Shown: positions 1 through 60,838 of the stretch, one piece after another
Numbering within the stretch: position 1 is the stretch's first letter
How the letters are laid out: every line of letters begins with the position of its first letter
From: an uncultured Sinobacteraceae bacterium
GTDB lineage: Bacteria; Pseudomonadota; Gammaproteobacteria; Nevskiales; Nevskiaceae
Direction of reading: 5' to 3'
NCBI GenBank assembly: GCA_903822975.1
Contig: CAIJRD010000002.1
Span: 186,001-250,000 of the forward strand
DNA: 64,000 nucleotides
The notes under the pieces: model-generated
Told to the model about the DNA's origin: nothing
The model's database searches: none
Seen by the model: only the letters and a program-made list of their open reading frames with translations
Program-made: the position numbers and the translations under genes

Positions 1-1332
1 TGGACCAAGCACATCACCATCGAAGGTGATCTGCGCTACCGCCAGGAAGGCGACTTCTACGACCAGTCGAACGATCCGAACCAGATCAATTTCCAGGCGA
101 TCAACAGCGGTGCGCCGGTCAACGTCAATTTCGCGTCGACCACGCCGGTGGTGCTGCCGTATCTGAACACGCAGAGCGATCGACAGCTGCCGCGCTTCCG
201 TGCGCGCCTCGGACTGGTCGCGCAGATCAGCGAAGACCTCACCACCAGCTTCCGCTTCAACAGCGGCAACAACACCAACCCGGTGTCGACCGATCAGACG
301 CTGGGCACCGATTTCAACAAGACCACGTTCGTCATCGATCGCGCGTATTTCGACTATCACCCGAGCAAGAACCTGTCGGTGTGGGCCGGGCGCGCGCCGA
401 ACCCATTTGAGTCGACCGACCTGCTGTTCGATCGCGATCTTAATTTTGATGGCGTGTCGACGCAGTTGCGCCACTCGTTTGCCGACAACCTGCGTGGCCG
501 CTTGACCCTCGGTGCGTTCTCGATCGAGAACACCGCCTACGATTTCCCCAGCACCAGCTCGCAGAAAGGTTCTGGCCGCGACAAGTGGCTGTTCTCCGCA
601 CAGCTCGGTCTCGACTGGAAGCTGCAACCGGGTATGACCGTAAGCGGCTCGGTGGCGTATCACGATTACTACGAGCTCGACGGCAAGGCGCGTCCCTGCG
701 ATCCGAACCCCTTGAGCGCGAGCATCGCCTGTAGCGCCGACGACGGTCGCCCCGGTTTCATCCAGAAGGGCAATACGCTGTTCGCGCTGCGCCAGCTGAC
801 GCCGGCGCAGCCGACCGATCCACAGTTCCAGTACTTCGGTCTGGCTTCGCCGTTCCGCATCCTCGACACGCTGGTGACATTGGACCGCACGATCGACGGA
901 CCGGTGCACGCGCGGATCGATCTCGATTACGTGCGCAATCTCGGCTATCACCGCAAGGCGGTGGTCGACAAGGGCCCGGTCAACAACTTCGGTGGCTGCG
1001 CCACCAGCGATCCGAGTTGCACGGCGAGCTTCGCCGGCGGCGGCAACGCCTTCATGGTGCAAGCCCGATTCGGTTATGGCGAAACGGTTGCGCGCTGGCA
1101 GTGGAATGCCTTCGGTGGCTACAAGCGCCTCGACAGCGATGCCGTGGTCGATGCCTTCACCGATTCCGATTTCCATTACGGCGGCACCAACGCCAAGGGT
1201 TATTTCATCGGCGGCAACCTTGGTCTCGCGCACAACACCTGGTTCACCGCGCGTTACCTGAGTGCCAGCGAAGTCAGCGGTCCGCCGCTGTCGATCGATG
1301 TGCTGCAGTTCGATCTGAACGCGCGCTTCTGA
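1..1332 (+). CDS. putative porin, 5'-truncated by window edge
   Basis: The frame is open from base 1, so about 443 C-terminal residues are visible and the start lies upstream. The sequence has the alternating polar/aromatic pattern of an outer-membrane beta-barrel, with repeated short strands rich in Tyr, Phe and Gly, and it ends in Phe (Leu-Asn-Ala-Arg-Phe), as outer-membrane barrels usually do. One loop near 690-740 and another near 990-1030 each carry two Cys and may be disulfide bonded. The overall look fits the 'putative porin' (Porin_5-like) family. That assignment is from memory of the family, not from a search. It sits 10 bases before a periplasmic coiled-coil gene, so the first four genes probably form one operon leading to the giant exoprotein. 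Confidence 0.75.
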   Translation, partial: WTKHITIEGDLRYRQEGDFYDQSNDPNQINFQAINSGAPVNVNFASTTPVVLPYLNTQSDRQLPRFRARLGLVAQISEDLTTSFRFNSGNNTNPVSTDQTLGTDFNKTTFVIDRAYFDYHPSKNLSVWAGRAPNPFESTDLLFDRDLNFDGVSTQLRHSFADNLRGRLTLGAFSIENTAYDFPSTSSQKGSGRDKWLFSAQLGLDWKLQPGMTVSGSVAYHDYYELDGKARPCDPNPLSASIACSADDGRPGFIQKGNTLFALRQLTPAQPTDPQFQYFGLASPFRILDTLVTLDRTIDGPVHARIDLDYVRNLGYHRKAVVDKGPVNNFGGCATSDPSCTASFAGGGNAFMVQARFGYGETVARWQWNAFGGYKRLDSDAVVDAFTDSDFHYGGTNAKGYFIGGNLGLAHNTWFTARYLSASEVSGPPLSIDVLQFDLNARF

Positions 1333-1342
1333 GGCAAGGCTC

Positions 1343-2011
1343 ATGAACGACTTGCTAGGGCTTCGATCGACCCGCTTCGCCGTTGTCTGCTGCCTGTCGC
1401 TCTCGGCAATCGTCGCGCTGCCGGCACAAGCGCAGTCGGCGGCGGAGACGCGTCTGCGTGATCAATTGCGGCAGACCACGCTGGCGCTGCGCGACATGGA
1501 AGACCAGAACACCGAGCTCAAGCAGAAGCTCGCGGAAGCCGAGCAGAAGCCGGCCGCACCGGCGCCGGCAGCACCTGCAAACAGCGCCGACAGTGCGAAG
1601 GCGCGACGCCTCGAAGCCGAACTGCGCGCACAAACCGAAAAGGCCGCCACGTTGCAGAAGGCGCTCGATCAGGCGCGCGGCACACAAGAGCAGTGGCAAA
1701 CCTCGTACGCGCAAACTGCCGCGCTGGCCAAATCGCGCGATGCCGACGCCAAGAAATTCGAAGCCGACGCGCAATCGCTCGGCGAACGCGTGCAGCGTTG
1801 CGAGCGCGACAACGCGCAGCTTTCGACCATCAGCGAAGACCTGTTGCAGCGTTACAAGAACAAGGGCCTGTGGCGCGCAATCGGCGATTCCGAACCGCTG
1901 ACCGGCTTGCAGCGCGTGCAGCTCGAAAAGCTTGCGCAGGACTATCACAGCCGCATCGTCGACGCCGGTGTCGCCGCGCCGGCGCCTTCCACACCATCCG
2001 CGCCGCAGTAA
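1343..2011 (+). CDS. secreted/periplasmic coiled-coil protein of unknown function
   Basis: This 222-residue protein has an N-terminal signal peptide: basic start, hydrophobic core, then Ala-Gln-Ala near residue 30. The mature part is a long Ala/Gln/Glu/Lys-rich helix with heptad-like spacing, interrupted by a Pro/Ala linker near residues 70-80. It ends in a Pro/Ser/Ala tail. I do not recognise a named family. A periplasmic coiled coil beside a porin and a two-partner exoprotein could act as a chaperone or tether for surface export, but that is inference from position. It starts 10 bases after the porin stop and ends 19 bases before the YbjN-like gene. Confidence 0.7.
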   Translation: MNDLLGLRSTRFAVVCCLSLSAIVALPAQAQSAAETRLRDQLRQTTLALRDMEDQNTELKQKLAEAEQKPAAPAPAAPANSADSAKARRLEAELRAQTEKAATLQKALDQARGTQEQWQTSYAQTAALAKSRDADAKKFEADAQSLGERVQRCERDNAQLSTISEDLLQRYKNKGLWRAIGDSEPLTGLQRVQLEKLAQDYHSRIVDAGVAAPAPSTPSAPQ

Positions 2012-2030
2012 GCGCAGGAGATTCGATTCC

Positions 2031-2492
2031 ATGAGTGATTCCATTCAACTCGCCGTTACCCCCGCGCTGATCGCAGACGCCCTGCAAAAATGCGGCTATC
2101 GCGCGCAGGCCGTCGAGCGCGACGGCGTGCGGCAGCTGCAGAGCGCGGCACAGGGTCTCGGTTTCTTCGTCAGCTTCGGCAATCCGGCGGCGGTTGCCGG
2201 CAGCTTCATCGACTACTCGTTCCAGTGCTGGATCGCGATCGAAGGCACGCTCGCGCCGGAGCTGATCGATAGCTGGAATCGCGGCAAACGCTTCGCGCGG
2301 CTGTATCGGCAGGAGCAGATGCTGGTGCTGATCATGGACGTGCTGGTGGCCGGCGGCGTCACCGAAAATTATTTGCGCGCACAAGTCGAGATCTGGGATC
2401 GCGTGCTGCACGACTTCGTGCAGCACTTGCGTCAGAGCGTGCCGGCGGCGGCCGAAGCGAACACATCCGCCGCGACGGCCGAAGCCGCCTGA
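2031..2492 (+). CDS. YbjN-like (type III chaperone fold) protein
   Basis: This is a 153-residue cytoplasmic protein. The ATG at 2031 is chosen because AGGAG ends 10 bases before it; a longer reading from 1932 overlaps the previous gene and lacks this signal. The order of elements (an early 'LxxCGYRAQ', a central 'FFVSFG' strand, then 'NRGKRFARLY' and a closing helix) fits the YbjN domain family, which has the fold of type III secretion chaperones. The Ala-rich tail from about residue 140 is low complexity. Members are linked to stress and motility in other bacteria, but the biochemical role is unknown. The stop overlaps the next ATG by one base (TGATG), which implies translational coupling. 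Confidence 0.75.
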   Translation: MSDSIQLAVTPALIADALQKCGYRAQAVERDGVRQLQSAAQGLGFFVSFGNPAAVAGSFIDYSFQCWIAIEGTLAPELIDSWNRGKRFARLYRQEQMLVLIMDVLVAGGVTENYLRAQVEIWDRVLHDFVQHLRQSVPAAAEANTSAATAEAA

Positions 2493-2917
2493 TGTTGCAG
2501 CGCGCGTGCAGCGTCGGCGCGATCGCCGCGCTGATGTGCGCTGCCGCGTTGCAGGCCAGCGCGGTTGGCGCGCCGACCGCGGCGCCCACTGCCGAACCGA
2601 CCGCCGCGCCCACGACAGGGCCGGCAGTTGCGAACGCAGGCGCGCCCTGTGTCGAGATCGAAGGTGCCGCGCGCGAGCGCTATCTCGACTGCCTGTCGGC
2701 ACAGCTCGCCGCGCGGTCGCAGGCCGACGCAGCGCTGCATCGAGCGTCGATGGACGCAGTGATCGAATCGGTCGCGCCGGCATCGCCGGCTGCTGCCGGT
2801 GTGTTCAACCAGACCGCGACGCACCAGACCCTCGGCAGCGCGTTCGGGCATGGCGTGCGCCGTCCGGAAACGGTGATGGTGTATCCGCAACCGCTGCAGC
2901 CGCCCGCGCGACATTAG
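2492..2917 (+). CDS. small secreted protein, unknown function
   Basis: This 141-residue protein has a signal peptide (residues 1 to about 25, hydrophobic core with Ala-rich end). A Pro/Thr/Ala stretch then repeats 'APTAxPTA', followed by a globular part with two Cys (about residues 52 and 66) that may form a disulfide. No family is recognised. Its ATG overlaps the stop of the YbjN-like gene. It is the last gene before the octamer repeat array and the giant exoprotein, so it may be an accessory of that surface system. The secreted nature is well supported; the role is not. Confidence 0.6.
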   Translation: MLQRACSVGAIAALMCAAALQASAVGAPTAAPTAEPTAAPTTGPAVANAGAPCVEIEGAARERYLDCLSAQLAARSQADAALHRASMDAVIESVAPASPAAAGVFNQTATHQTLGSAFGHGVRRPETVMVYPQPLQPPARH

Positions 2918-2922
2918 TCGTT

Positions 2923-3218
2923 GAACGGTTGAAGCATTGATTCAATGAACTGCCGAACCGCTGAACCGCTGAACCGCTGAACCGCTGAACCGCTGAACCG
3001 TTGAACCGCTGAACCGTTGAACCGTTGAAGCGTTGAAGCGTTGAAGCGTTGAAGCGATGAAGCGATGAAGCGATGAAGCGATGAAGCGATGAAGCATTGA
3101 TGCGTTGATGCGTTGATGCGATGAAGCATTGATGCATTGATGCATTGATGCATTGATGCGTTGATGCGTTGATGCGTTGATGCGTTGATGCGTTGATGCG
3201 ATGAAGCGTTGATGCCTT
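2923..3218 (+). repeat. octanucleotide tandem repeat, 37 copies
   Basis: Thirty-seven consecutive 8-base units run in exact register. The unit drifts along the array: GAACCGCT/GAACCGTT (about 2955-3026), GAAGCGTT and GAAGCGAT (3027-3090), then GATGCGTT and GATGCATT (3099-3202). The general form is GA(A/T)(C/G)C(G/A)NT. Because 8 is not a multiple of 3 and each unit carries TGA across its junction, the plus strand has stops in every frame and cannot be coding. The minus strand lacks stops and only seems open. The array fills most of the gap before the exoprotein gene and ends 27 bases before its first possible ATG. Confidence 0.97.
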
Positions 3219-3317
3219 GAGTTGTGAGTTTCAAGTTGCGAATCGATGAGTGGTCAGGCGCAGCAGAGTCGTACAGATATTCAGCAGCAGTCGAATTGGC
3301 ATTCTGGAGCAGCACCG

Positions 3318-6300
3318 ATGAAGCGCACCCAGCAGTTTGACCTCCGTGTCGTCTCCGCACCGCAGCTGCAGCTGTCGGTGCAGGGTCGCTTGCGCCGTTA
3401 TGCGCTGCTCAGTGGCATGGGCATTGTCATCGCGTCTGCGCTGGATGCGCCGGTCGTGCAGGCCGCCGCGCCGTTCGGCAGTCCGGCCTGGTTCGCGCAG
3501 GCGCGCGCGGCGTCGCCGGTGACCGCGACTGCAGGCACCGCCGCCAATCCGCCGAGTGCTGGCGCGCCGGGCGCGGTGGTGACGCCACAGCAGGCAATTC
3601 TGCAGGCGCAGCGCTCGACCACCGATCTCGCACGCGCAGCTGCCGCAGTGACGTCGGCACTCGCGGCGCAGAAGGCGGCACAGCAGCTTTCGTTGGGCGC
3701 GCCGTCGAATGTGCCGGATGGTCTCGCAGCGGGCGGCCTACAAGTCGCCAACGGTGTCGGCAGCAATCCCTCGCTGTGGCAGAACGCAAAAGCGCCGACG
3801 CAGAGCGTGGCCGCCGGCAAGACCACGGTCAACGTCAAGCAGACCGCGCAGAAAGCGATCTTGACCTGGGACTCGTTCAACGTCGGCCGCAACACGACGC
3901 TGAATTACGACCAGAGCGCCGGCACTCAGGCCAATGGCAGCAACGACTGGATTGCGCTGAACCGCATCAGCGCCGGTGGTTCGCCGAGCCAGATTCTGGG
4001 CCAGATCAAAGCCGACGGTTCGATCTATCTGATCAATCCGAGCGGCATCATTTTCGGCGCGGGCAGCCAGGTCAATGTGCATTCGCTGATCGCCTCGTCG
4101 CTGCCGCTGTTCAACGACAGCGTCGCCGCCAGCAATGCGTTCTTCCTGAATCAGGGCATCGCCAATGCGGTCGGCTCGCAGCCGATTCTCGGTGGTGCGC
4201 TGACCCCGCAGCTCGTCGCGAGTCCAGCTGCCAGTGCGCAGATCACGATCGAAGCCGGTGCGTCGATCACCACCGGCGAACTCGGCTATTCGCTGATCGC
4301 GGCACCGAAGATCGTCAACGCCGGCAGCATCACCGCCAGCGGCGGCCAGGCGATTCTTGCGGCTGGTCTGCGCGTCTCGCAGCAGCAGGTGGCGAGTTCG
4401 TCGAACAGTGCCTCATCGGCGCTGCTGGTGCCGGTGGTGACCGGAACGATCGTCGACAGCAACGGCCACGACATCACGCCGGTCGGCTCGATCGTCAACA
4501 CCGGCATCATCCAGTCGCCGCGCGGCAACATCAGCTTGGTCGGCGGCAACATCCAGCAGAACGGTGTGCTCGCGGCGTCGAGCAGCGTAACGACGCCGGG
4601 CAGCATCACCATCGATGCGCGCGACGAGCGCGATGTGGTCAGCGCGCTGACGCAGGCGCGCGTCGGCTCGGTCAAGTTCGGTCCTACTTCCGTAACGACG
4701 CTGTTGCCGGAAGAAGATGGCCAGACCACTACTTCGACCGCCTCTGCCGATCAGACCTTCCAGACCGGCACCATCAAGATCACCGGCGGTTCGGTCAGCT
4801 TGAATAGCGGCGCCTTGATTGAAGCGCCGGGCCAGAATGTGCAGATCACCGCGATCGCGGAGAATCTGCCGGGCCAGACTTTCTCTGGAATCACCGACGG
4901 CTCCGTGGTCGGACGGGTTTACGTCGACCAGAATGCGACGATCGATGTCGCCGGCCTCGCCAATATCGAACTGGCGATGGCGGTCAACCAGGTCACCATT
5001 CCGCGTCTCGGCCTCAACGAGCTTGCGGATTCGCCGCTGCAGCGCAATGGTTTCCTGTTCGGTCAGCCGATCACGGTCGATGCCAGTGCCGTCGGTGTCG
5101 ATGCCAATGGCAACGCCTATGTCGGCACGCCGCTGGCGAACGTTGGCGGCTACATCCAGCAGGTGCCGCGCAAGATCGATCAGCTATTGCAGAACGGTGG
5201 TGCAATCACGCTGGCTGGCGGTGAAGTGCTGACGCGCACCGGCTCGCAGCTGAATCTCGATGGCGGCTACATCCATTATCTCGGCGGTCTGCTGACAACC
5301 ACCAAGCTGGTCGCGGCCAATGGCGCGATCATCGACATCTCGAATGCCGATCCGAACGTCAGCTATATCGGCATCGCCGGGCAGTTCACGCAGGCGCAAC
5401 CGCGCTTCAATCTGACGCGCAGCTACAGCAATCCCTTGCTGGCAGGTGGCGCGCAGTACGTGTCGGATTACATTCAGGGCGGCAAGGCCGGCACGCTCAA
5501 CGTGTTCGGCCTGTCGACGACGATTCTCGATGGTGACGTTTCGGCGCATGCGTATGCCGGTCGCAATCAGGTGGCCGGCGGCGCGATTCCGGCGGGTGGC
5601 CAGTACAACGCCGGTGCCGGCAGCAACAACAAGCTGGCGTCGGCGGTGTTCCCGGATATCGACACCGTACTGCTGGCAGGGCCCAGCTACGTGCTGGAAA
5701 AGTCGAGCCCGGAGCTGAAGCTGATCGATGCGGATTTCAGCTTCGATACGCCGTTGACCAGCAGCGTGAGTGCGCTAAACGATCCCGACAACTTCCTCAA
5801 GTGGACGCCGATTTCCACTGACCTGCTGCGCGACGGTGGCTTCTCCGGCATCAGCGTGATGGCCGACGATCCTGCGCGCACGCGCAAGGATCAGGGCGGT
5901 GAAATTCTGGTGCGCAACGCGGTTGATGTGCAGGCCGGCGGCAGCATCAGCCTGACCGGCTCGCGTGTGCGCATCCGCGCCGATCTGAATGCGGAGTCGG
6001 GCAGCATCAACGTCACCGCGACCGGCAACACCTCGGTGGTCGGTTCGACCCTGCGTCCGACCGAAGCGGACAGCGCCACACGCGATGGTGATCTGATCGT
6101 CGCCAACGGCGTCACCCTCGATGCGCGCGGCCAGTGGGTCAACGATGCCGGTCTCGATCAGGATCACATTCGCGGCGGCGCCTATATCAACGGCGGCAGC
6201 ATCAGCCTGCAAACCTTGCAGAACGCATTTCAGATCGACGGCACGCAGGTTGTCGATACCACCGGTTCCGTACAGCTCGGCAGCGGCAGCCTGCTCGATG

Positions 6301-9300
6301 TTTCGAGTGGCGCGCGCATCCTGCCGAGTGGCAAGTTCAGCATCGCCAATGATGTGCTGAAAGGGCGCGGCGGCAACCTCTCGCTGGCCGTGTATGCGCC
6401 CAATGCGGCAGGACCATTCGGTGCGGAACCGCCATCGGCGCCACTGCCGACCGCGATGCCGAACAGCGGACAGCTGCAACTCGACGGCAACCTGCGCGGT
6501 TATGGCTTCTCCGGCGGTGGCAGTTTGAGTCTGCGTGCGCTCGGCATTCAGATCGGTGATTCCGCAGCTGCGGCGCCGTCCTGGGCCTTGGTACTTCCGG
6601 CGAACTTCTTCAGCGCGCAGGGTTTTGGCAAGTACGTACTGACTGCTGAATACGACGCCACCATCACCGCGGGCACCGTGGTCGCGCCGAGTCAGGTCAA
6701 TCTGATTCCGAATGTCGCGGCACTGCTGAGCGCCGCCAGCGGCAGCGACATCCTGCCGATGATTGACAGCAGCAGCAGTGGCGCCAGCAGTGTTACAGGC
6801 GGCCTTACCAGTCTCGGCAAGCTCGACGACTATCACCGTCAGGCCGCGGGTTTCAGCCTGTTCGCAGGCGACTACCTCAACTGGCGTTCAAACAGCGGTC
6901 TGCCGGATTACAGCGGCTCGCCGAGTATCGCCGGTGCGCCGGGCATCACCGGCACGGTGCTGCTGGCGCAGAACGCCTCGATCAACGCGGATGCCGGTGC
7001 GCAGGTGCTGCTCGGATCGATCAATCAAGTCACCGTCGAAGGCTCGATCATCGCGCGCGGCGGCAGCATCACACTGACCGGAGACACTGGCGGCGGTGGG
7101 TATTCACAAGTGCCCGGCGTTTTCAGCACGGCGTCGTATACCAGCAACAGCAAGTCGGTCTGGCTCGGCAGCAGCAGCCTGCTCGATGTTTCCGGCATCG
7201 CGCTGATCGATCCGCTCGCTACGCCGGTGTCGGTCGACGGCAGTCTCGTCACGCCGCGTACGGGCCGTCTGCTCGCCGGCGGACAGGTCGTCCTCACCGA
7301 CGATACCGGCTACGTCATTGCGCTGAACTGCAGCTCGGTGAACGCTTGTGGTGCCGATGGCGTGCCGGGCGCGCGCATCCGTGCCGATGGTGCGAGCGCC
7401 GAATTCGATTTGCCGTCCGCCGCCGGTGGTTATACGCGCCAGACAATTTACAGCGACGCCGGTTCGATCACGGTCGGCGCCGGTGCCGGCCTGTTCTTCA
7501 ATGCGCGCCTCAGTGCGCAGGCGCCGAGCGGTTCGACAGCGGCCGGCGGCAGCTTGACCATTGCACCGGAAAGCAATCTGCCGTTCCCGCCAGGTGCCGG
7601 TTTCGACGGCGCTACGCAAATGGTAGTCAGAGAGAATCTGCAGGCGCTACCTACCGGCGCGTTGACACCGGGTGCAACGATTGATGCTAAGGGCCCGGTC
7701 GGTGTGATCGGCTTCGGCGCCAGTGAGCTGAACAACTCCGGCATCGAGACGCTCAACCTGGGTAGCGATCCAGCGCTGCGCAGTGCAGCGATCCCGCTGC
7801 TGTTCGGCAGCAATGTCAGCCTCAAGCTCGACCGCGCGATCACGATCAATGCCTCGGTCATCACCGGCGCTTCGCCGGCCGCCGCCGCGGACGGTAGCGC
7901 CGGCACCTCGGTGGTCACGCTCGATGCGCCCTATGTGGCGCTGCACGGCTACACGCCGGGTGCGAATTACGCGGCGCTGCCGACTCCGAAACTGCCGGAT
8001 GCGAACGTCAGCCTGGTCGTGCAGGCCGACAACATCGATCTGGGCGGACAGTTCGAGCTGCGCAACTTCGGCAGCGCCAGTTTCAATGCCAATGGCGACA
8101 TTCGCTTTGTTACGCCGGCGGCGGACGAGTTCTACACACCCAACAGCACCAGCGCACCGATCACGATTCCCGGCCTGTTGCTCAGCGGCGGCGATCTGAC
8201 GTTCGATGCAGTGCAGATCTATCCGGCCACCGGCAACCGTTTCATCATCGACGCGGTCGCGATCACCGATCCCGACACCGGCAACAATCAGGCGACCAAG
8301 ATCACGTTCGCGCGCAATCCCGGCAAACAGAACGCCTCGCCGCCGATCTCCGCAGGCGGCAGCCTGTTGGTGGATGCGTCCAACATCGTGCAGAACGGTG
8401 TGCTGCTGGCGCCGGATGGTCAGATCACGCTCGGCGTGAACGATATCCACGATGGCGATACGCGCGATGCGTACAGCTATCCGAACACCGACCTCAGCAA
8501 CACGCAGCGCACCGTGCAACTGCCGCTGACGGTGACCGGCTCGGTGCAGCTCGGCGAGCGCAGCATCACCTCGGTGTCGCTGAGCAATACGATCGTGCCG
8601 TATGGCGAGACTGTCGACGGCCAGAACTGGCAGTACAACGGCGCGGCGCTGATCAATGCGGCGTCGGGCTCGCAGGTGCCGGACCTCACTGCACCGCCGA
8701 TCAAGCAGGTGACGCTGAGTGCGCGCAATGTGTCGGTGAAGCAGGGCGCGAGTGTCGATCTGTCCGGTGGCGGCGATCTGCAGGCGCAGGAGTTCGTCCC
8801 CGGTACCGGCGGTTCGCGCGATGTCTTGTCGCAGTACCAGACCAGCTATGCCAGCGGTTCGTCGCAGCAGGTGCCGACCTACGGCGATGCGCGTCCGGTG
8901 TACGCGATCATCCCCGGTTACCACGGCATCGCGCCTTACGATCCAGCGATAGTCGGCGGCGCGCCACTGGTCGGCCAGTCGGTGTATCTGTCAGGCGTGC
9001 CGGGTCTGCCGGCCGGTGTTTACACGCTGATGCCGGCGAAGTACGCCACCTTGCCGGGGGCCTTCCGCGTGGTTGAGAACACCGCGGCGACCGATGCAGT
9101 CGCCAGCCAGAACCAAACGCTGGCCGATGGTACGCAATTGGTAGCGGGTCGATTTGTCGACGGCATCACCGGCAGTGAGTCCTCGCGCAGCACTGCGTTC
9201 TTCGTGCAGTCGAATGCGGTCTGGCAGCAGTATTCGCAGTACACGCTGAGCAGCGCGAACACTTACTTCGCAGCGCTGGCGGCAAGCAAGGGCGAGGCAG

Positions 9301-12300
9301 CCCCGTTGTTGCCGCAGGACGCTGGACACTTGGTGCTGGCGGCAACCAAGACGCTAAGCCTGGGCGGAACCGTCAATGCCGCTGCTGCCAATGGCGGCAC
9401 CGGCGCGGAAGTTGACATCGCCGCACCTCAGATTCAGATCAGCGGCAGCGGTGCTGTGGCACTCGACGGCTACGTGCAAGTCAGCGCCACCGACCTCGAC
9501 GATCTCAAAGCAAGCAGCCTGCTGATCGGCGGCACCAGCACGCGCACCGGCGAAGGCCAACAGATCAAGGTGCTCGCCACCAGTGTCGTGGTCGACAACG
9601 GCAGTCAGGCGCTGAGCGCACCGGAAATCACGCTGGTCGCCAATGCGGTCGACGGTGCCGGCGGCATCACGGTGAATGCCGGCAGCGTGATCAAGGCCGA
9701 TGGCACCCTCAGTGCCGGCAACGATGTGCCGGTGATCATCGGACAATTGCCAAGCTCGACCGGTGCGAAAGATGGCGCCAGTGGTGATGGCGCCTTATTG
9801 CGCGTCAGCAATGGTGCGGCGACCACCGTCACGCGTCGCAACGTGCCCGGCGTGGATGGCGCCAGCGGTAGCGCTGCCGGTGTGTTGACGATCGGCGCGG
9901 GCGCCAACATCAGCGGCGGTGTCGCGCTGACACTCGATGCCAGCGGTAATACCGTGGTCGATCCCACAGCCTTGTTCAGCGCCAAGGAGATCGATGCGGA
10001 CAGCAGCCTGATCACCTTCGTTGGGAGCGGTGGCAGCACTGCGCCGATTGCAGGGCTGGTGATCAGTCCGCAGTTGTTGCAGCAGTTCGCAGCCGCGCAG
10101 ACGATCAATCTGAGCAGCCGCGGCGATCTCGCGTTCAACGGCGCGGTCGATATCGCGCTGAGCAATGCCTTGAGCCTCAACGCCGAGCGTTTTGTCGGCG
10201 ATGGTCATGCGGTTTCGATCAAGGCCGGCACGCTGACACTTGGCAACAGCATCGGCGGCGATCCGGCCGCGGCGACTGCCGGGAGCGGCGGCGCATTGAG
10301 CTTGCACGCAGATGAGATCGTGATCGGCGGCGGCGACAAGGCGCTGGCTGGATTCGGTAGCGTCAACGCCACTGCGACCAAGGGCATGTTGTTGCAGGGC
10401 AAGGGCGCTTTCGATTTCGGTGCGGCTGCGTTGAGCCTGAACACGCCGATCCTGATCGCGGATGCCGGTGCCGATGCCAGCCTGCGTACCGCGGCCGCAT
10501 TGAATATCGCCAGCGCCAGCGGCGGCAAGCCGCTGACCTTGATGCCGATTGGTGGTGCGATGCATCTGACCGGTGCCAGCGTTGCCGTTGCGACGAGCTT
10601 GCAGGCGCTCGGCGGCACCATCGGGCTCGACGCGACAACCGGCGACGTCAGCCTGGCCTCGACCGCCGCACTCGATGTCTCAGGCATCGCAAAACAGTTC
10701 TTTGATGTCACGCGCTACGCCGCCGGCGGCAGCATCAAGCTGCGGTCCGAACTGGGCAATGTGCAACAGGCCAGCGGTGCGAAGCTCGAATTCGGTGGCG
10801 CCACCGGCGGTGGTGATGCGGGCAGCCTCGGCGTGATTGCAACGCAAGGCGCTGCGCAGTTGGGCGGAACGCTCAGCGGGGCTGCCGCCAACGGATACAG
10901 CGGTGGTGCCTTCACGCTCGATACCTTGGCCGCGACCGATCTCGACGCACTGGCGCATCAACTCGCCGATGGCGGCGTTGATCGCGCGGTTGCAGTCCAT
11001 ACCCGCAGCGGCAATCTTCAGTTGTCGGCCGGCAATACCTTGAGCGCGGAGCAGGTGAGCCTGACCGCCGACGGCGGCAGCGGCGCGCCGAGCGCGATTC
11101 AAGGCAATGTCAACGTGCTCGGCACGATCGACGCCAGCGGTGCGGCTGGCGGCAGCATCGCGCTGTTCGGCCGCAGCGGTGTGGATCTCGAAGGTACGCT
11201 GCGCGCGCGCGCGAACGACGCGAGTCAGCGTGGCGGCAACGTCGACATCGGCACGCTCGGCATCAGCGACGGCACGGTCGACGCGAGCTATGGCTACGAG
11301 AATGTCAGCGCCGCGAACGCCGGCACGCTGCGCTTTGGTAGCGGCGCGCAAATCGATGTGAGCGGCGGCACGCTCGACGGCAGCGTGCATCTGCGCGCAC
11401 CGCTGCTCGCGGGCGGCGAACTCAATGTCGCGGTTGCAGCACCGGCCACCCTGGTGAAGGGCGCACGGGAAACCACGCTCGAAGCCTTCGCGACCTGGAG
11501 CACCGACGACGCGAGCCTCGGCGCCAAGCACTTCGACGGCATCATCGATCCAGCGGGTCTCTACGATGCACAGGGTCAGTCGGTCGATCCGGTCAACGCC
11601 GAGCACAGCGGTTTCTATCAGACCACCTTGCTCGGGTTCGTCCAGCAGCCCGGCTTCAGCTTTGGCAACCGTTACAACGCGATCAAGGGTCTGGTGGTGC
11701 GGCCGGGCATCGATCTGGTCAACAACGATGCCGCAATCAACAGCGGCAACATCTCGGTGCTGAGCAACTGGAACCTCGGTGCCGGCACGCTCAGCGGCGG
11801 GCTACCCGTGCTGTCGTATCGCTATGCCGGTTCGATCGCACCAGTCTTGAGTCTGCGCGCGGCGAGCGACATCAACGTAGACGCCAGCATCAGCGACGGT
11901 TTCTTCCAGTACAGCAATCCATTCGGTCCCAACGCCAACGGCGCCTGCGATGCTGTGGTGTGCGACAACTCGATCGCGCCGCAGGCGACCAAGAAAGATC
12001 CGCTGCCGCTGCTGACCGCCAGCCTCGATGGTGCCACGACCGGCTTCGATGCCAACGGCAAGCCGTTCGTGCTCGCGGCGGATTCGACCTCGTACCGACT
12101 GGTTGCTGGCGCCGATACGGCGAGCGCCGATCCCTTGGCGTTGTCGAATGCCGCATATCAGGCGGGACGCGGCAATGTCAGTCTCGACGGCCATACCGTC
12201 GCGACCTACATCAAAAACGTCAATACCGGCGCAAGTGTGCAAGTGGTGGCGCCGACGATGATCCGTACGGGTGTTGGTTCGATCGACATCGCCGCTGCGA

Positions 12301-15041
12301 ACAACGTGCAGCTGCTCGATACCGTAGCCCCCGGCGTGATCTACACCGCGGGCCGTCCGTCCGCCAACACGACCGCCGAAGATACGAGCCGGATCGTCAA
12401 GAGCATTGGCAAGATCCCGGTGATCGTCGACAGCGGGCAGGTCAATCCGGATTCGGCAGGCGACATCTCCATCGTGGCCGGCAACGACATCATCGGTGTG
12501 GAGCAGATCACCGACGATGGTTCGCGTAGCGGCAAAGCCGGCACCAATCTGAGCCAGTTCTGGTGGCCGTGGATGCAGCAGGACTGCGTGTTCATCGGCA
12601 ACGGCTGTGCAGCGCCGACCAGTTCGTCGATCAACTTCGGCAACTTCGATCAAGGCGTGCTCAGTGTCGGTGGCAATGTCTCGGTCTCGGCCGGCAACGA
12701 TATCCGTGACCTCGGCGTATCGCTGCCGACGACCTGGACGCTGACAACGCGCAGCGACGGAGGTCAGCTCGTCAACACGATTGGCGGCGGCAACCGGCTT
12801 ACGGTGAGTGCCGGCGGCAACATCCTCAGCGGAACCTACTTCGTCGCCCAAGGCCAGGGCCAGCTCAGCGCGGGCGGCGATATTGCGTCCGACATCGTCG
12901 GCAAGGTGGGTTCGGTGGCGACACTGCTGGCAGTGCAGGACGCACAGCTCAGCGTCAACGCGCGCGGTTCGATCGATATCGGCGGCGTGTTCGATCCGTC
13001 CTATCTGTTTCAGAACTTCGATTCCCAGAGTTACAGCGCCGCTTCGGCGGTCAATCTCTCGGCTACTGCGGGCGATGTCGCGTTCAATACGCTGACCAAT
13101 CGAACTGGCGAATACGGCTATGGCAGTAATCTGGTCTCGGCCTATTCCTATCTGCTGCCGGCCGCGCTGAATGTCACCGCACTGAATGGCGATATCCAGA
13201 TTCAGCAGCGCGGCGAACTGTATCCCTCGGCCATCGGAAATCTAAGACTCATCGCCGCCGGCAATACTGAACTGTTCGACACTCTGAAGTTCGGCAACCT
13301 CGCGTACTTCGGCTTGATCGACGCGCCTGACACGGTGCTGCCGTCGCCGCTGAATCCGCTGGGTTCATCGGGCTTCGTACCGACCTTCATCAACAACGGC
13401 GGAATTTCGAACCTGCTGCTGCATACCGACACGCTGTTACATGCAGCCGATCCCGAACCGGTTCGAATCTATAGCCTCGTCGGCGACTTGGTCGACGGCA
13501 CCAGCAGCGGTCGCGACATGCTGATCGTCGCCGCCGACAAGCCCGCACAGATCATCGCCGGCCGCGACATCGTCAACCTTGATTTCCGCGGCCAGAACCT
13601 TTACGCCTCGGACATCAGCCTGATCTCGGCCGGTCGCGACATTTACGACACCGCCTTGTCGGAGTCGCAGCAACTCGCGGCGATTCAGCTCGGCGGCATC
13701 GGCACCTTGGCGCTGTCGGCGGGTCGAAACATCGGCCCGATCACCTCCGCCAACGAAGCCTTCGACGCCGGCTTCCTGCCGAATGGCACGACGCTGTATC
13801 CCGGCATCGACACGGTTGGCAACTTGTACAACGCGCACCTCGAGCACGCCGGCGCCGATATTGCGATCAGTTTCGGCATCGCGCCGGGTGTCGATCTGCA
13901 GTCATTCGAGCAGGCGTATCTTGATCCGAGTGTCACTGCCGTTGGCCTGCCGAGTTACAGCACGCAACTGATCCGCTTCGTGCAGCAGTACGAAAACGAC
14001 GATCTGATGCGGCACGGACTGAGCGGCAAAGTCGGCAAGCTCAGCGCGGCACAGGCCTATGCCGCCTTCGGCAAGTTGCCGGCGGTGCAACAGCAGCTGT
14101 TGGTCAGCAGCGTGTTCTTCGACATCCTCAATCGCACCGGCATCGACTTCAACAAGCCGGACAGTCTCTACGCCGGCCAGTACGGTCGCGGTTATCAGGC
14201 GATCAGCACGCTGTTCCCGTCGGCGCTCGGCTACACCGCGAACAATCTTGGCAGCGGCAGCAACGGTGCGCAGGCGCCGGTTGCGACCGGCTTGTTCGAC
14301 ATGCGCGGTTCAACCGTGCAGACGCAGCAGGGCGGCGATGTTTCGGTGCTGGGACCCGGCGGCGAAGTGCTGGTCGGCAGCACCGCGGCACCGCCGAGTG
14401 TTGCGGCAACGCCGAGCAGTGCCGGCATCGGTCCGAATGATCAGGGCATTCTGACGTTGGAGCAGGGCAGCGTCAGCATCTTCACCGATCGCAGTGTGCT
14501 GCTGGCACAGAGTCGCATCTTCACCGAGCAAGGCGGCGACGTCCTGATCTGGAGTTCCAACGGCGACGTCAATGCGGGCAAGGGTGCCAAGACCGTGTCT
14601 GAAATTCCGCCGCCGGACTATCTGTGCGATCTTGATCATTACTGCGTGGTCGACGCCAAGTCGCAAGTCAGCGGCGCCGGCATCGCGGTGCTGCAGACCA
14701 AGGCCGGCGCTGCGAGTGGCAATGCCAACCTGGTGGCGCCGCGCGGGACCGTGGACGCGGGTGAAGCCGGCATTCGCGTGTCCGGCAATCTCAATGTCGC
14801 GGCGCTGCATATTGCCAATGCCAACAACATTCAGGTGCAAGGCAACAAAGCAGGTGTTCCGACCGGTCTGGTCAACACCGGTGCACTGAATCTCGCGAGT
14901 TCAGTCGCGGCAGCGGTTTCGCAAAACGCGACCGCGCTGGCGTCGAGCCGGCCGCAGGACAGTGCGGTCAACGCGATCAGTGTGGAAGTGATCGGCTTCG
15001 GCACGCCAAGTGCCGATCAACAAAACGAATTGCGCCAATAG
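3318..15041 (+). CDS. giant filamentous haemagglutinin-type two-partner secretion exoprotein (TpsA)
   Basis: From the ATG at 3318 the product is about 3,907 residues. That start is preferred because GGAG lies 8 bases upstream; an ATG at 3246 in the same frame lacks a ribosome site. A long signal peptide ends near Val-Gln-Ala (about residue 49). Residues about 150-360 look like the haemagglutination-activity/TPS domain, with 'ILTWDSFNVG' and 'INPSGIIFG' (near residue 239) matching the conserved TPS motifs. The rest is imperfect beta-helix sequence rich in Gly, Asn, Ser and Ala. The end ('ISVEVIGFG') resembles the DUF3739 class. An RGD occurs near residue 2268. No toxin-like tail is evident, so a CdiA role is unlikely. 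It should be exported by a TpsB barrel, which is not in the window. Confidence 0.9.
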   Translation: MKRTQQFDLRVVSAPQLQLSVQGRLRRYALLSGMGIVIASALDAPVVQAAAPFGSPAWFAQARAASPVTATAGTAANPPSAGAPGAVVTPQQAILQAQRSTTDLARAAAAVTSALAAQKAAQQLSLGAPSNVPDGLAAGGLQVANGVGSNPSLWQNAKAPTQSVAAGKTTVNVKQTAQKAILTWDSFNVGRNTTLNYDQSAGTQANGSNDWIALNRISAGGSPSQILGQIKADGSIYLINPSGIIFGAGSQVNVHSLIASSLPLFNDSVAASNAFFLNQGIANAVGSQPILGGALTPQLVASPAASAQITIEAGASITTGELGYSLIAAPKIVNAGSITASGGQAILAAGLRVSQQQVASSSNSASSALLVPVVTGTIVDSNGHDITPVGSIVNTGIIQSPRGNISLVGGNIQQNGVLAASSSVTTPGSITIDARDERDVVSALTQARVGSVKFGPTSVTTLLPEEDGQTTTSTASADQTFQTGTIKITGGSVSLNSGALIEAPGQNVQITAIAENLPGQTFSGITDGSVVGRVYVDQNATIDVAGLANIELAMAVNQVTIPRLGLNELADSPLQRNGFLFGQPITVDASAVGVDANGNAYVGTPLANVGGYIQQVPRKIDQLLQNGGAITLAGGEVLTRTGSQLNLDGGYIHYLGGLLTTTKLVAANGAIIDISNADPNVSYIGIAGQFTQAQPRFNLTRSYSNPLLAGGAQYVSDYIQGGKAGTLNVFGLSTTILDGDVSAHAYAGRNQVAGGAIPAGGQYNAGAGSNNKLASAVFPDIDTVLLAGPSYVLEKSSPELKLIDADFSFDTPLTSSVSALNDPDNFLKWTPISTDLLRDGGFSGISVMADDPARTRKDQGGEILVRNAVDVQAGGSISLTGSRVRIRADLNAESGSINVTATGNTSVVGSTLRPTEADSATRDGDLIVANGVTLDARGQWVNDAGLDQDHIRGGAYINGGSISLQTLQNAFQIDGTQVVDTTGSVQLGSGSLLDVSSGARILPSGKFSIANDVLKGRGGNLSLAVYAPNAAGPFGAEPPSAPLPTAMPNSGQLQLDGNLRGYGFSGGGSLSLRALGIQIGDSAAAAPSWALVLPANFFSAQGFGKYVLTAEYDATITAGTVVAPSQVNLIPNVAALLSAASGSDILPMIDSSSSGASSVTGGLTSLGKLDDYHRQAAGFSLFAGDYLNWRSNSGLPDYSGSPSIAGAPGITGTVLLAQNASINADAGAQVLLGSINQVTVEGSIIARGGSITLTGDTGGGGYSQVPGVFSTASYTSNSKSVWLGSSSLLDVSGIALIDPLATPVSVDGSLVTPRTGRLLAGGQVVLTDDTGYVIALNCSSVNACGADGVPGARIRADGASAEFDLPSAAGGYTRQTIYSDAGSITVGAGAGLFFNARLSAQAPSGSTAAGGSLTIAPESNLPFPPGAGFDGATQMVVRENLQALPTGALTPGATIDAKGPVGVIGFGASELNNSGIETLNLGSDPALRSAAIPLLFGSNVSLKLDRAITINASVITGASPAAAADGSAGTSVVTLDAPYVALHGYTPGANYAALPTPKLPDANVSLVVQADNIDLGGQFELRNFGSASFNANGDIRFVTPAADEFYTPNSTSAPITIPGLLLSGGDLTFDAVQIYPATGNRFIIDAVAITDPDTGNNQATKITFARNPGKQNASPPISAGGSLLVDASNIVQNGVLLAPDGQITLGVNDIHDGDTRDAYSYPNTDLSNTQRTVQLPLTVTGSVQLGERSITSVSLSNTIVPYGETVDGQNWQYNGAALINAASGSQVPDLTAPPIKQVTLSARNVSVKQGASVDLSGGGDLQAQEFVPGTGGSRDVLSQYQTSYASGSSQQVPTYGDARPVYAIIPGYHGIAPYDPAIVGGAPLVGQSVYLSGVPGLPAGVYTLMPAKYATLPGAFRVVENTAATDAVASQNQTLADGTQLVAGRFVDGITGSESSRSTAFFVQSNAVWQQYSQYTLSSANTYFAALAASKGEAAPLLPQDAGHLVLAATKTLSLGGTVNAAAANGGTGAEVDIAAPQIQISGSGAVALDGYVQVSATDLDDLKASSLLIGGTSTRTGEGQQIKVLATSVVVDNGSQALSAPEITLVANAVDGAGGITVNAGSVIKADGTLSAGNDVPVIIGQLPSSTGAKDGASGDGALLRVSNGAATTVTRRNVPGVDGASGSAAGVLTIGAGANISGGVALTLDASGNTVVDPTALFSAKEIDADSSLITFVGSGGSTAPIAGLVISPQLLQQFAAAQTINLSSRGDLAFNGAVDIALSNALSLNAERFVGDGHAVSIKAGTLTLGNSIGGDPAAATAGSGGALSLHADEIVIGGGDKALAGFGSVNATATKGMLLQGKGAFDFGAAALSLNTPILIADAGADASLRTAAALNIASASGGKPLTLMPIGGAMHLTGASVAVATSLQALGGTIGLDATTGDVSLASTAALDVSGIAKQFFDVTRYAAGGSIKLRSELGNVQQASGAKLEFGGATGGGDAGSLGVIATQGAAQLGGTLSGAAANGYSGGAFTLDTLAATDLDALAHQLADGGVDRAVAVHTRSGNLQLSAGNTLSAEQVSLTADGGSGAPSAIQGNVNVLGTIDASGAAGGSIALFGRSGVDLEGTLRARANDASQRGGNVDIGTLGISDGTVDASYGYENVSAANAGTLRFGSGAQIDVSGGTLDGSVHLRAPLLAGGELNVAVAAPATLVKGARETTLEAFATWSTDDASLGAKHFDGIIDPAGLYDAQGQSVDPVNAEHSGFYQTTLLGFVQQPGFSFGNRYNAIKGLVVRPGIDLVNNDAAINSGNISVLSNWNLGAGTLSGGLPVLSYRYAGSIAPVLSLRAASDINVDASISDGFFQYSNPFGPNANGACDAVVCDNSIAPQATKKDPLPLLTASLDGATTGFDANGKPFVLAADSTSYRLVAGADTASADPLALSNAAYQAGRGNVSLDGHTVATYIKNVNTGASVQVVAPTMIRTGVGSIDIAAANNVQLLDTVAPGVIYTAGRPSANTTAEDTSRIVKSIGKIPVIVDSGQVNPDSAGDISIVAGNDIIGVEQITDDGSRSGKAGTNLSQFWWPWMQQDCVFIGNGCAAPTSSSINFGNFDQGVLSVGGNVSVSAGNDIRDLGVSLPTTWTLTTRSDGGQLVNTIGGGNRLTVSAGGNILSGTYFVAQGQGQLSAGGDIASDIVGKVGSVATLLAVQDAQLSVNARGSIDIGGVFDPSYLFQNFDSQSYSAASAVNLSATAGDVAFNTLTNRTGEYGYGSNLVSAYSYLLPAALNVTALNGDIQIQQRGELYPSAIGNLRLIAAGNTELFDTLKFGNLAYFGLIDAPDTVLPSPLNPLGSSGFVPTFINNGGISNLLLHTDTLLHAADPEPVRIYSLVGDLVDGTSSGRDMLIVAADKPAQIIAGRDIVNLDFRGQNLYASDISLISAGRDIYDTALSESQQLAAIQLGGIGTLALSAGRNIGPITSANEAFDAGFLPNGTTLYPGIDTVGNLYNAHLEHAGADIAISFGIAPGVDLQSFEQAYLDPSVTAVGLPSYSTQLIRFVQQYENDDLMRHGLSGKVGKLSAAQAYAAFGKLPAVQQQLLVSSVFFDILNRTGIDFNKPDSLYAGQYGRGYQAISTLFPSALGYTANNLGSGSNGAQAPVATGLFDMRGSTVQTQQGGDVSVLGPGGEVLVGSTAAPPSVAATPSSAGIGPNDQGILTLEQGSVSIFTDRSVLLAQSRIFTEQGGDVLIWSSNGDVNAGKGAKTVSEIPPPDYLCDLDHYCVVDAKSQVSGAGIAVLQTKAGAASGNANLVAPRGTVDAGEAGIRVSGNLNVAALHIANANNIQVQGNKAGVPTGLVNTGALNLASSVAAAVSQNATALASSRPQDSAVNAISVEVIGFGTPSADQQNELRQ

Positions 15042-48703: not shown

Positions 48704-49849
48704 ATGCGTATCGCAGTGCTGGCCGGCGAACCCTCGGGCGATCTGCTGGGTGCGGCAATCGTCCGCGCGCTGCAACTGCGCTTCCCCGAGGCGAGCTTCT
48801 ACGGCGTAACCGGTCCGCGCATGCGCGAAGCCGGTTGCGAGTCGATCGCCGACATCGATGCGCTGTCGGTGATGGGCTTGGCCGAAGTGCTGCCGAAACT
48901 GCCCTCGATCCTGCGCTTGCGCAAAAGCTTGCGCGAGCGCTTCGTTGCGGATCGGCCCGACTGCGTGATCGGCATCGACGCGCCCGATTTCAATCTGCCG
49001 CTGGAGCGTCGACTCAGCGAGGCCGGCCTTAATACCGTGCATGTGGTCAGCCCGACGGTCTGGGCCTGGCGCGCCGGTCGCGTGAAGTCGATCGCGCGCT
49101 CGACCCGGTTGCTGCTGTGCCTGTTTCCGTTCGAGCCGAAGTTCTACGCCGATCAGGGCGCGCATCTGAAGACCGCCTACATCGGTCATCCGCTGGCCGA
49201 AGAACTGAGTGCGCCGATTGCGCGTGCCGATGCGCGCGCGCAGCTCGGCCTGCCGGCCGACGCCAGCGTCGCGGCACTGCTGCCCGGCAGCCGCGGCGGC
49301 GAACTCAAATATCTGGCCGAGTCGTTCGCGCAGACCGCGGCCTGGCTGTCGGTGCGCCATCCGCAACTGCATTTCGTTGTGCCCCTGGCGAAGCCGAGCC
49401 TGCGTCCTGCGTTCGAGGCCGCCATTTCCCTGCATGCGCCGGCGGTGCACTGGCATCTGGTGGAAGGCGAGTCGCGCGCCGCGATGCGTGCGGCGGACGC
49501 GGTGCTGCTGGCCTCCGGCACGGCGACACTAGAATGCCTGCTGCTCGATCGACCGATGGTGGTCGGCTATCGCGTCTCGGCATTCACCGCCTGGCTGCTG
49601 CGATCTCTGAACCTGCTGAAGATTGAGCGCGTCAGCCTGCCCAATCTGCTGTGCAGCGCGCCGGTGGTGCCGGAGTTCTTGCAGGAAGCGGCGACGCCGG
49701 AAAATTTCGGTGTGGCGCTCGAAAAGCTGCTGTTCGACCCCGCAGCGCGGGCCGCACAGCTGGCGCCGTTCGCGGACGTGCGCGCGACGCTGAAGCAGGA
49801 TGCGGCCGCACGCGCTGCGCAGGCAATTGCCGAGCTGCTCGGGCACTGA
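48704..49849 (+). CDS. lpxB: lipid-A-disaccharide synthase
   Basis: This 381-residue GT19 glycosyltransferase joins UDP-2,3-diacylglucosamine and lipid X. 'AGEPSGDLLGAAIVRALQ' is the N-terminal signature. 'GIDAPDFNLPLE' and 'VSPTVWAWRAGRVK' are conserved. 'LLPGSRGGELKYL' and 'ASGTATLECLLLDRPMVVGYR' form the donor site. The last seven codons are the first half of a 34-base repeat unit that continues past the stop, so the C-terminus is drawn from the repeat or gave rise to it. Confidence 0.97.
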   Translation: MRIAVLAGEPSGDLLGAAIVRALQLRFPEASFYGVTGPRMREAGCESIADIDALSVMGLAEVLPKLPSILRLRKSLRERFVADRPDCVIGIDAPDFNLPLERRLSEAGLNTVHVVSPTVWAWRAGRVKSIARSTRLLLCLFPFEPKFYADQGAHLKTAYIGHPLAEELSAPIARADARAQLGLPADASVAALLPGSRGGELKYLAESFAQTAAWLSVRHPQLHFVVPLAKPSLRPAFEAAISLHAPAVHWHLVEGESRAAMRAADAVLLASGTATLECLLLDRPMVVGYRVSAFTAWLLRSLNLLKIERVSLPNLLCSAPVVPEFLQEAATPENFGVALEKLLFDPAARAAQLAPFADVRATLKQDAAARAAQAIAELLGH

Positions 49850-50032
49850 GCGCAGGACGGTCGCTGAAATGCTCGGGCGCTGAACGCTGGTTGATCGCTG
49901 AAATGCTCGGGCGCTGAACGCTGGTTGATCGCCGAACTGCCTGGGGCTGAACTTGGGGCCATCGCCGAACGGCTCGGGCGCTGAACGCGGGGCGGTCGCC
50001 AAAATAGCTGCGGTGCTGAGCGCGGCAATGTC
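49829..50032 (+). repeat. 34-base tandem repeat, 6 units, starting inside lpxB
   Basis: The units are 49829-49862, 49863-49896, 49897-49930, 49931-49963, 49964-49997 and 49998-50032 (34, 34, 34, 33, 34, 35 bases). The second and third are identical; the others differ at several bases. Each begins GC(C/T)GAA-like and centres on CTCGGGCGCTGAACGC. The first unit contains the lpxB stop. The minus strand is open across it ('FSARAFQR'-type repeat) but is not judged coding. Confidence 0.93.
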
Positions 50033-60591: not shown

Positions 60592-60718
60592 AGCTGGATT
60601 CATTCATTGAGGCTGAATATATCTCCTTGCTCATTGGTTGCCTTGCGGACGTTTCGCAGTGCGCATCCGGCGATATGAATGTATCAATGCACGTGACCCT
60701 GCATGAATCAGCCAGCAT

Positions 60719-60838
60719 GAAGTCTTAAGTGGAGTACTAAGTGAAGCCTTAGGAGAAGTCCTAAGTAAAGTCCTAAGTAAAGTCCGAAGTGAAGCCCTAG
60801 GTGAAGTCCTAGCTGAAGCCCTAGCTGAAGCCCTGTGC
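60719..60838 (+). repeat. 12-base tandem repeat, 10 units
   Basis: Ten units run in exact register, with the general form GAAGYCCTARGT (from GAAGTCTTAAGT to GAAGCCCTAGCT). Stops (TAA, TAG) occur on the plus strand. The minus strand reads as a 4-residue repeat but is not judged coding. The array lies 127 bases after the VOC gene stop and 33 bases before the MmcQ/YjbR gene. Confidence 0.93.

Follow-up and report, generated by a model that had tools for sequence, protein, structure and literature searches.

The genome of an uncultured Sinobacteraceae bacterium (GenBank assembly GCA_903822975.1) was found to carry an array of 37 octamers in front of a very large two-partner-secretion (TPS) exoprotein gene, and about a fifth of the same genome contains some fifty shorter intergenic arrays that have practically no counterpart in the congeners sampled. 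The single array is an element of a known kind; of greater interest is the burst of arrays, seen in the present genome and not in the congeners sampled. The explanation towards which we incline is that the octamer array is a slippage-grown microsatellite in the untranslated spacer of a secretion operon conserved among congeners, and the longest sampled case of the burst. Positions given without a locus name refer to the window, the whole analysed stretch of 64,000 nucleotides (contig CAIJRD010000002.1, positions 186,001 to 250,000).

Structure and setting of the octamer array

The array consists of 37 units in register on the forward strand (2924–3219, 296 bases) with no insertion or deletion, as the sequence-only reading had proposed and as both direct reading in register and Tandem Repeats Finder bear out; the program gave period 8 over 2946–3093 and 2962–3220 in two overlapping rows. 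The first four units are degenerate, and the other 33 form a clean core (2956–3219, forward strand) in which four of the eight positions are invariant and whose main blocks are AACCGCTG, AAGCGTTG, AAGCGATG, ATGCATTG and ATGCGTTG. At the array the best lag-8 self-match score was 200, whereas none of 50 windows simulated by a Markov-1 model with the same dinucleotide frequencies scored above 11. The array is far beyond chance, and chance is excluded.

Drift of the unit sequence in blocks had been attributed to repeated local amplifications, and the description holds and the explanation is supported. The differences between adjacent units sum to 34, whereas 20,000 permuted orders averaged 73.9 and none fell below 52; neighbouring octamers thus resemble one another far more closely than a random order would give, which is the pattern expected from local amplification. 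The array had also been described as being in perfect register and highly prone to slippage. The register is indeed unbroken, but identical units occur at most five in a row, and an array with such interruptions is expected to be less prone to slippage than 37 pure copies.

That the array is an artefact of assembly or sequencing is hardly credible. The genome sequence was assembled into 20 contigs and comes without reads as a check, which leaves some room for this reading, but the longest exact internal repeat of the array is 40 bases and can be placed by ordinary reads, the unit drift is ordered, and many other arrays of the genome are short. TGA recurs along the array and interrupts each of the three forward frames; on the reverse strand the frames stay open over long distances. 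The array has head-to-tail short units in noncoding DNA, with blocks of local amplification, as is typical of an intergenic microsatellite or VNTR.

The gene coordinates confirm the array's place between a set of upstream genes and the gene of a very large exoprotein. The genes form a same-strand run in the order ShlB, ExbB, ExbD, TonB, Porin_5, a protein without Pfam match, YbjN, a small gene and the exoprotein, with gaps of −4 to 27 bases between those upstream of the array. First in the run is a gene for a transporter with POTRA_2 and ShlB domains (−5132 to −3516, upstream of the window), a ShlB/FhaC-type neighbour and presumably the exoprotein's cognate partner. On the forward strand of the window there follow the Porin_5 gene (1–1332, starting at −512), a gene without Pfam match (1343–2011), a YbjN-family gene (2031–2492) and a small gene with a PT-repeat match below the Pfam cut-off (2492–2917), the TAG stop of which lies six bases before the first in-register octamer. 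As the exoprotein ends this operon-like run, the array occupies the gap in front of its last gene, a spacer of 400 bases from the stop at 2917 to the start at 3318, nearly 300 of them array. The run from ShlB to the exoprotein looks like one operon, and the array would probably be transcribed within it, judging by gene order alone.

The ExbB protein of the run also has DUF2341 and laminin-G domains, and its gene is grouped, together with those of ExbD, TonB, Porin_5 and YbjN, with the TPS transporter gene (L100:8868–14000 and window 1–2917). A TonB system adjoining a TPS pair seems an unusual arrangement.

The exoprotein gene (3318–15041, forward strand) encodes 3,907 residues with an N-terminal TPS domain (PF05860, E 2.2e-17), as found in TpsA proteins, and DUF3739 near the C-terminus. 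The start at 3318 had been preferred to an in-frame ATG at 3246, rightly so, since a Shine-Dalgarno-like GGAG (3306–3309, forward strand) stands eight bases ahead of it and the N-terminus read from it resembles that of the homologue in congener G012, QGRLRRYALLSGMG being common to both; no comparable Shine-Dalgarno sequence or homologue support was seen for ATG 3246. The array ends 27 bases before ATG 3246 and 99 before ATG 3318, as had been given.

Short tandem arrays in the genome and its congeners

Arrays were counted in 878 kb, about a fifth of the genome (contig 12, 1–400000; contig 2, 1–160000 and 172001–490000), as intergenic repeats of at least 3.5 copies passing the thresholds, with genes called by a small purpose-made codon-usage caller that gives approximate starts and ends. 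The present genome contained 49–50 such arrays, whereas 14 of the 17 congeners (all except G001, G003 and G010) had none in 889 kb, and under relaxed thresholds the counts were 82 against three. They shift slightly with settings (28 or 27 in the first 400 kb, 50 or 49 in 878 kb). The intergenic DNA sampled came to 147 kb in the present genome and 105 kb in the congeners, so the contrast is not due to its amount. Strict arrays inside genes numbered 19 in the present genome and five in the congeners. If the sampled fifth is typical, there would be about 250 arrays per genome.

Periods range from 6 to 39, the commonest being 12 (13 arrays) and 8 (seven arrays), and the array before the exoprotein is the longest in the 878-kb sample. 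Unit sequences differ from array to array, and there is no recurrence of a single motif of the kind seen with TAACTGA or GGGNATC in other bacteria. A TGA-octamer pattern was present in six arrays of the genome, with different units, and arrays found with this pattern share TGA by construction. A search of 61 genomes with the same pattern, biased as it is towards one motif, gave matches in the present genome and in four of the 60 others, the 17 congeners having none. The contrast with the congeners and the variety of periods and units favour a microsatellite grown by slippage.

Three further observations speak in the same direction. No other long match to the array DNA occurs in the genome, and block drift is present in other arrays as well (L070, L074). 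Between lpxB and the gene for RNase HII, an imperfect array of about 34-base units (49822–50025) consists of copies of the lpxB 3' end, stop codon included; as a repeat of the gene's own end, it suggests that such arrays can start by tandem duplication at a gene end.

Another array of the window (60718–60834), with a 12-base unit (TGAAGTCCTAAG, 9.8 copies), is intergenic and flanked by glyoxalase-like and YjbR-like genes. In other genera, octamer arrays at L076:5202–5276, L078:5220–5293 and L079:5288–5355 overlap the 3' end of a gene or lie within about 8 bases of it, as placed by the approximate gene caller.

The proteins encoded beside other arrays are mostly not surface proteins. Twenty were considered, 18 beside long census arrays and two beside TGA arrays, a chosen sample with no background rate that serves as description. 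Two look like outer-membrane proteins (CsgG-like and phospholipase A1), and a chemotaxis receptor, an MFS transporter, a Na/H exchanger, an ALG10-like and an RskA-like protein belong to the inner membrane. The remainder are mostly housekeeping proteins, among them LpxB, RNase HII, DnaJ, an acyl-CoA dehydrogenase and a protein of queuosine synthesis, and one had no match.

A preference of the arrays for gene 3' ends was considered and rejected. Eleven of 42 arrays lie within 20 bases of such an end, where a fair null gives 8.4 and reached the observed number in 195 of 1000 runs. A first null had given 4.6 expected, with three of 500 simulations as high, but it was unfair in forbidding overlap with genes while four of the 11 arrays overlap one, and the preference was withdrawn as evidence. 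Arrays clear of a gene and near a 3' end numbered seven against 3.9 expected (71 of 1000 runs of the fair null were as high). In tandem gene pairs 20 of 29 arrays are closer to the end of the upstream gene than to the start of the following one, and 13 arrays lie in convergent gaps, for which length would predict 9.0. A 3'-end preference would have favoured tolerance of the arrays, and its failure under the fair null counts against the microsatellite explanation to that extent. A stop-codon rule was likewise rejected, a stop being found in the unit in 14 of 42 arrays when read in sense and in 15 of 42 when read in antisense.

The exoprotein N-terminus was matched in 16 of the 18 genomes of the genus, the present one included, although several matches are weak or cut by contig ends; among named genomes the search gave a single distant match, in a Nitrosomonadales bin. 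The upstream spacer was read at nine of the 15 congener loci, and none of the nine has an intergenic array there under strict or relaxed thresholds. The gap between the preceding gene and a plausible start of the exoprotein is about 150 bases in G012, 87–132 in G002, 68–104 in G016, 75–105 in G014, 72 in G008 and 28 in both G005 and G015; the exoprotein of G009 is a distant copy and was left out of this measurement. G002 has the same gene order from ShlB to YbjN and then the exoprotein, which supports the view of a conserved operon. The simplest account is that the array was gained in the present lineage. For the Tex protein, matched in 13 of the 18 genomes including the present one (five had no match), the best congener is 80% identical, so no close relative is known by which the gain could be dated.

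Possible effects of the array on the exoprotein

It had been proposed that copy number alters the spacing of a promoter or leader. For a promoter this finds no support here, as the upstream genes are a single run ending in the exoprotein and a simple consensus scan of 2400–3400, a weak test, gave no sigma-70-like site. In G007, about 376 array-free bases precede the exoprotein, and a spacer of this length makes an internal promoter before the exoprotein possible, which weighs against the assumption of co-transcription in the explanation we prefer.

Folding of the spacer RNA offers another route. The segment 2918–3330 has a predicted fold of −153 kcal/mol (z −4.4), and none of 100 shuffles was as stable. 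This stability comes from the downstream part of the array (3100–3219, forward strand), which is predicted to form a single long hairpin of −61.1 kcal/mol because its units pair with themselves through G-U wobbles. Good pairing is limited to the ATGCRTTG units, and among random octamers 6–8% at the composition of the array and 10–12% at that of the genome pair as well, so that the hairpin may be incidental; shuffles of the two ATGCRTTG units themselves were as good in 13 and 26 of 150 cases. The leader after the array (3210–3340) folds worse than its shuffles, 192 of 200 being as stable.

A structured intercistronic RNA, in which this predicted hairpin of 120 bases would protect the upstream mRNA or hinder expression of the exoprotein, is on this balance improbable, for all the stability of the modelled fold. 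Hairpins of REP elements have a somewhat similar effect on mRNA. If the spacer is transcribed, the modelled hairpin could nevertheless be a concrete route for copy number to matter. A general RNA fold of the genome's arrays was rejected, none of 22 other array units pairing beyond its own shuffles (the best was equalled by 24 of 150), and this too speaks against a structural role.

The known case closest to the present array is that of the adhesin genes of Haemophilus influenzae. In that species, TGAAAGA arrays of up to 38 copies lie 69–106 bases upstream of hmw1A and hmw2A, and in other strains octamer arrays of 12–15 copies lie 200–213 bases before the hmw genes (PMC2651432). Transcript and protein of hmw1A and hmw2A fall as the repeat number rises (PMC8262952). 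The present array, too, is a long tandem array of short units ahead of a TPS exoprotein gene, and it is comparable in copy number and in its distance from the gene. The heptamer array in H. influenzae differs in touching two mapped promoters and in a copy number that varies and changes expression, whereas the present one precedes the last gene of an operon-like run, with no promoter-like site found, and is known from the sequence of one genome.

By this analogy the array might be a contingency locus, kept since changes in copy number would raise or lower exoprotein expression and give a phase-variable adhesin. We consider this rather unlikely. The 37 copies ending 99 bases before the start, in the longest of 50 sampled arrays, agree with it, and a placement before a TPS exoprotein at a nearly hmw-like distance is something that chance need not give, which counts against our preferred explanation. 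In genomes with contingency loci, arrays would be expected to concentrate at surface or adaptation genes. Here the 48–49 other intergenic arrays, and the varied and mostly non-surface proteins among the 20 neighbours considered, argue against a dedicated locus. So do the short runs of identical units and the position of the exoprotein at the end of the run with no promoter-like site at 2400–3400; the comparison covers a single genome of the species.

Other bacteria offer parallels for arrays of general distribution. The GGGNATC heptamers of Xanthomonas and Nostoc likewise form many arrays genome-wide, are over-represented in noncoding DNA, reach 26 units and lie mainly beside genes of general metabolism, and their authors judged phase variation unlikely, the neighbours being mainly metabolic genes (PMC4692102). 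There, one G-rich motif recurs near stop codons on the coding strand (PMC4692102), whereas in the present genome each array has its own unit, the motif is different and the lean towards 3' ends fails the fair null. The TAACTGA repeats of marine Beggiatoaceae are also abundant intergenic short direct repeats containing stop triplets (PMC4679880); the units in the present genome, unlike those, are diverse.

The preferred explanation, a slippage-grown microsatellite, would thus hold that replication slippage enlarged the array in the untranslated spacer before the exoprotein gene and that the array is tolerated rather than selected, tolerated slippage being the default. Any effect on the exoprotein would most likely arise from the length of the 400-base stretch at 2917–3318 or from its folding, by polarity, mRNA decay or leader folding, and not through promoter spacing.

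Candidate causes and significance of the burst

Loss of mismatch repair was rejected as an explanation for the burst, since the present genome has intact mutS and mutL; the 5'-3' exonuclease domain of PolA and RecJ are present as well. The presence of all four weighs against the preferred explanation. For sbcD, none of the 18 genomes of the genus gives a match above the cut-off, so the gene does not distinguish the present one. Among MutS, MutL, the PolA exonuclease, RecJ and sbcD no cause was found. A second gene with a 5'-3' exonuclease domain besides the polA-like one occurs in two of the 18 genomes, the present one (G000:C11:111284–111772) and G006 (G006:C130:22567–23058), and 36.6 kb of G006 yielded a single array under relaxed thresholds and none under strict ones. 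A mutS or mutL match is absent from the assembly of congener G017, which is 91% complete.

It may tentatively be proposed, with rather less confidence than in the microsatellite itself, that one species of the genus has undergone a genome-wide burst of short intergenic arrays whose units are diverse and measure 6 to 39 bases, practically none being seen in 14 sampled congeners, with the mismatch-repair genes intact. This would suggest an unrecognised alteration of replication or repair by which short tandem duplication is favoured; the array before the exoprotein would be its most extreme product, perhaps co-opted as a switch.

A real array before an adhesin easily suggests phase variation in a genome that is rich in arrays. 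Should the array modulate the exoprotein, it would represent an HMW-like case that probably arose independently and has its repeat within the spacer of an operon. Because 14 sampled congeners differ so sharply from the present genome, the cause of bacterial microsatellite bursts becomes testable by comparing a species with its relatives.
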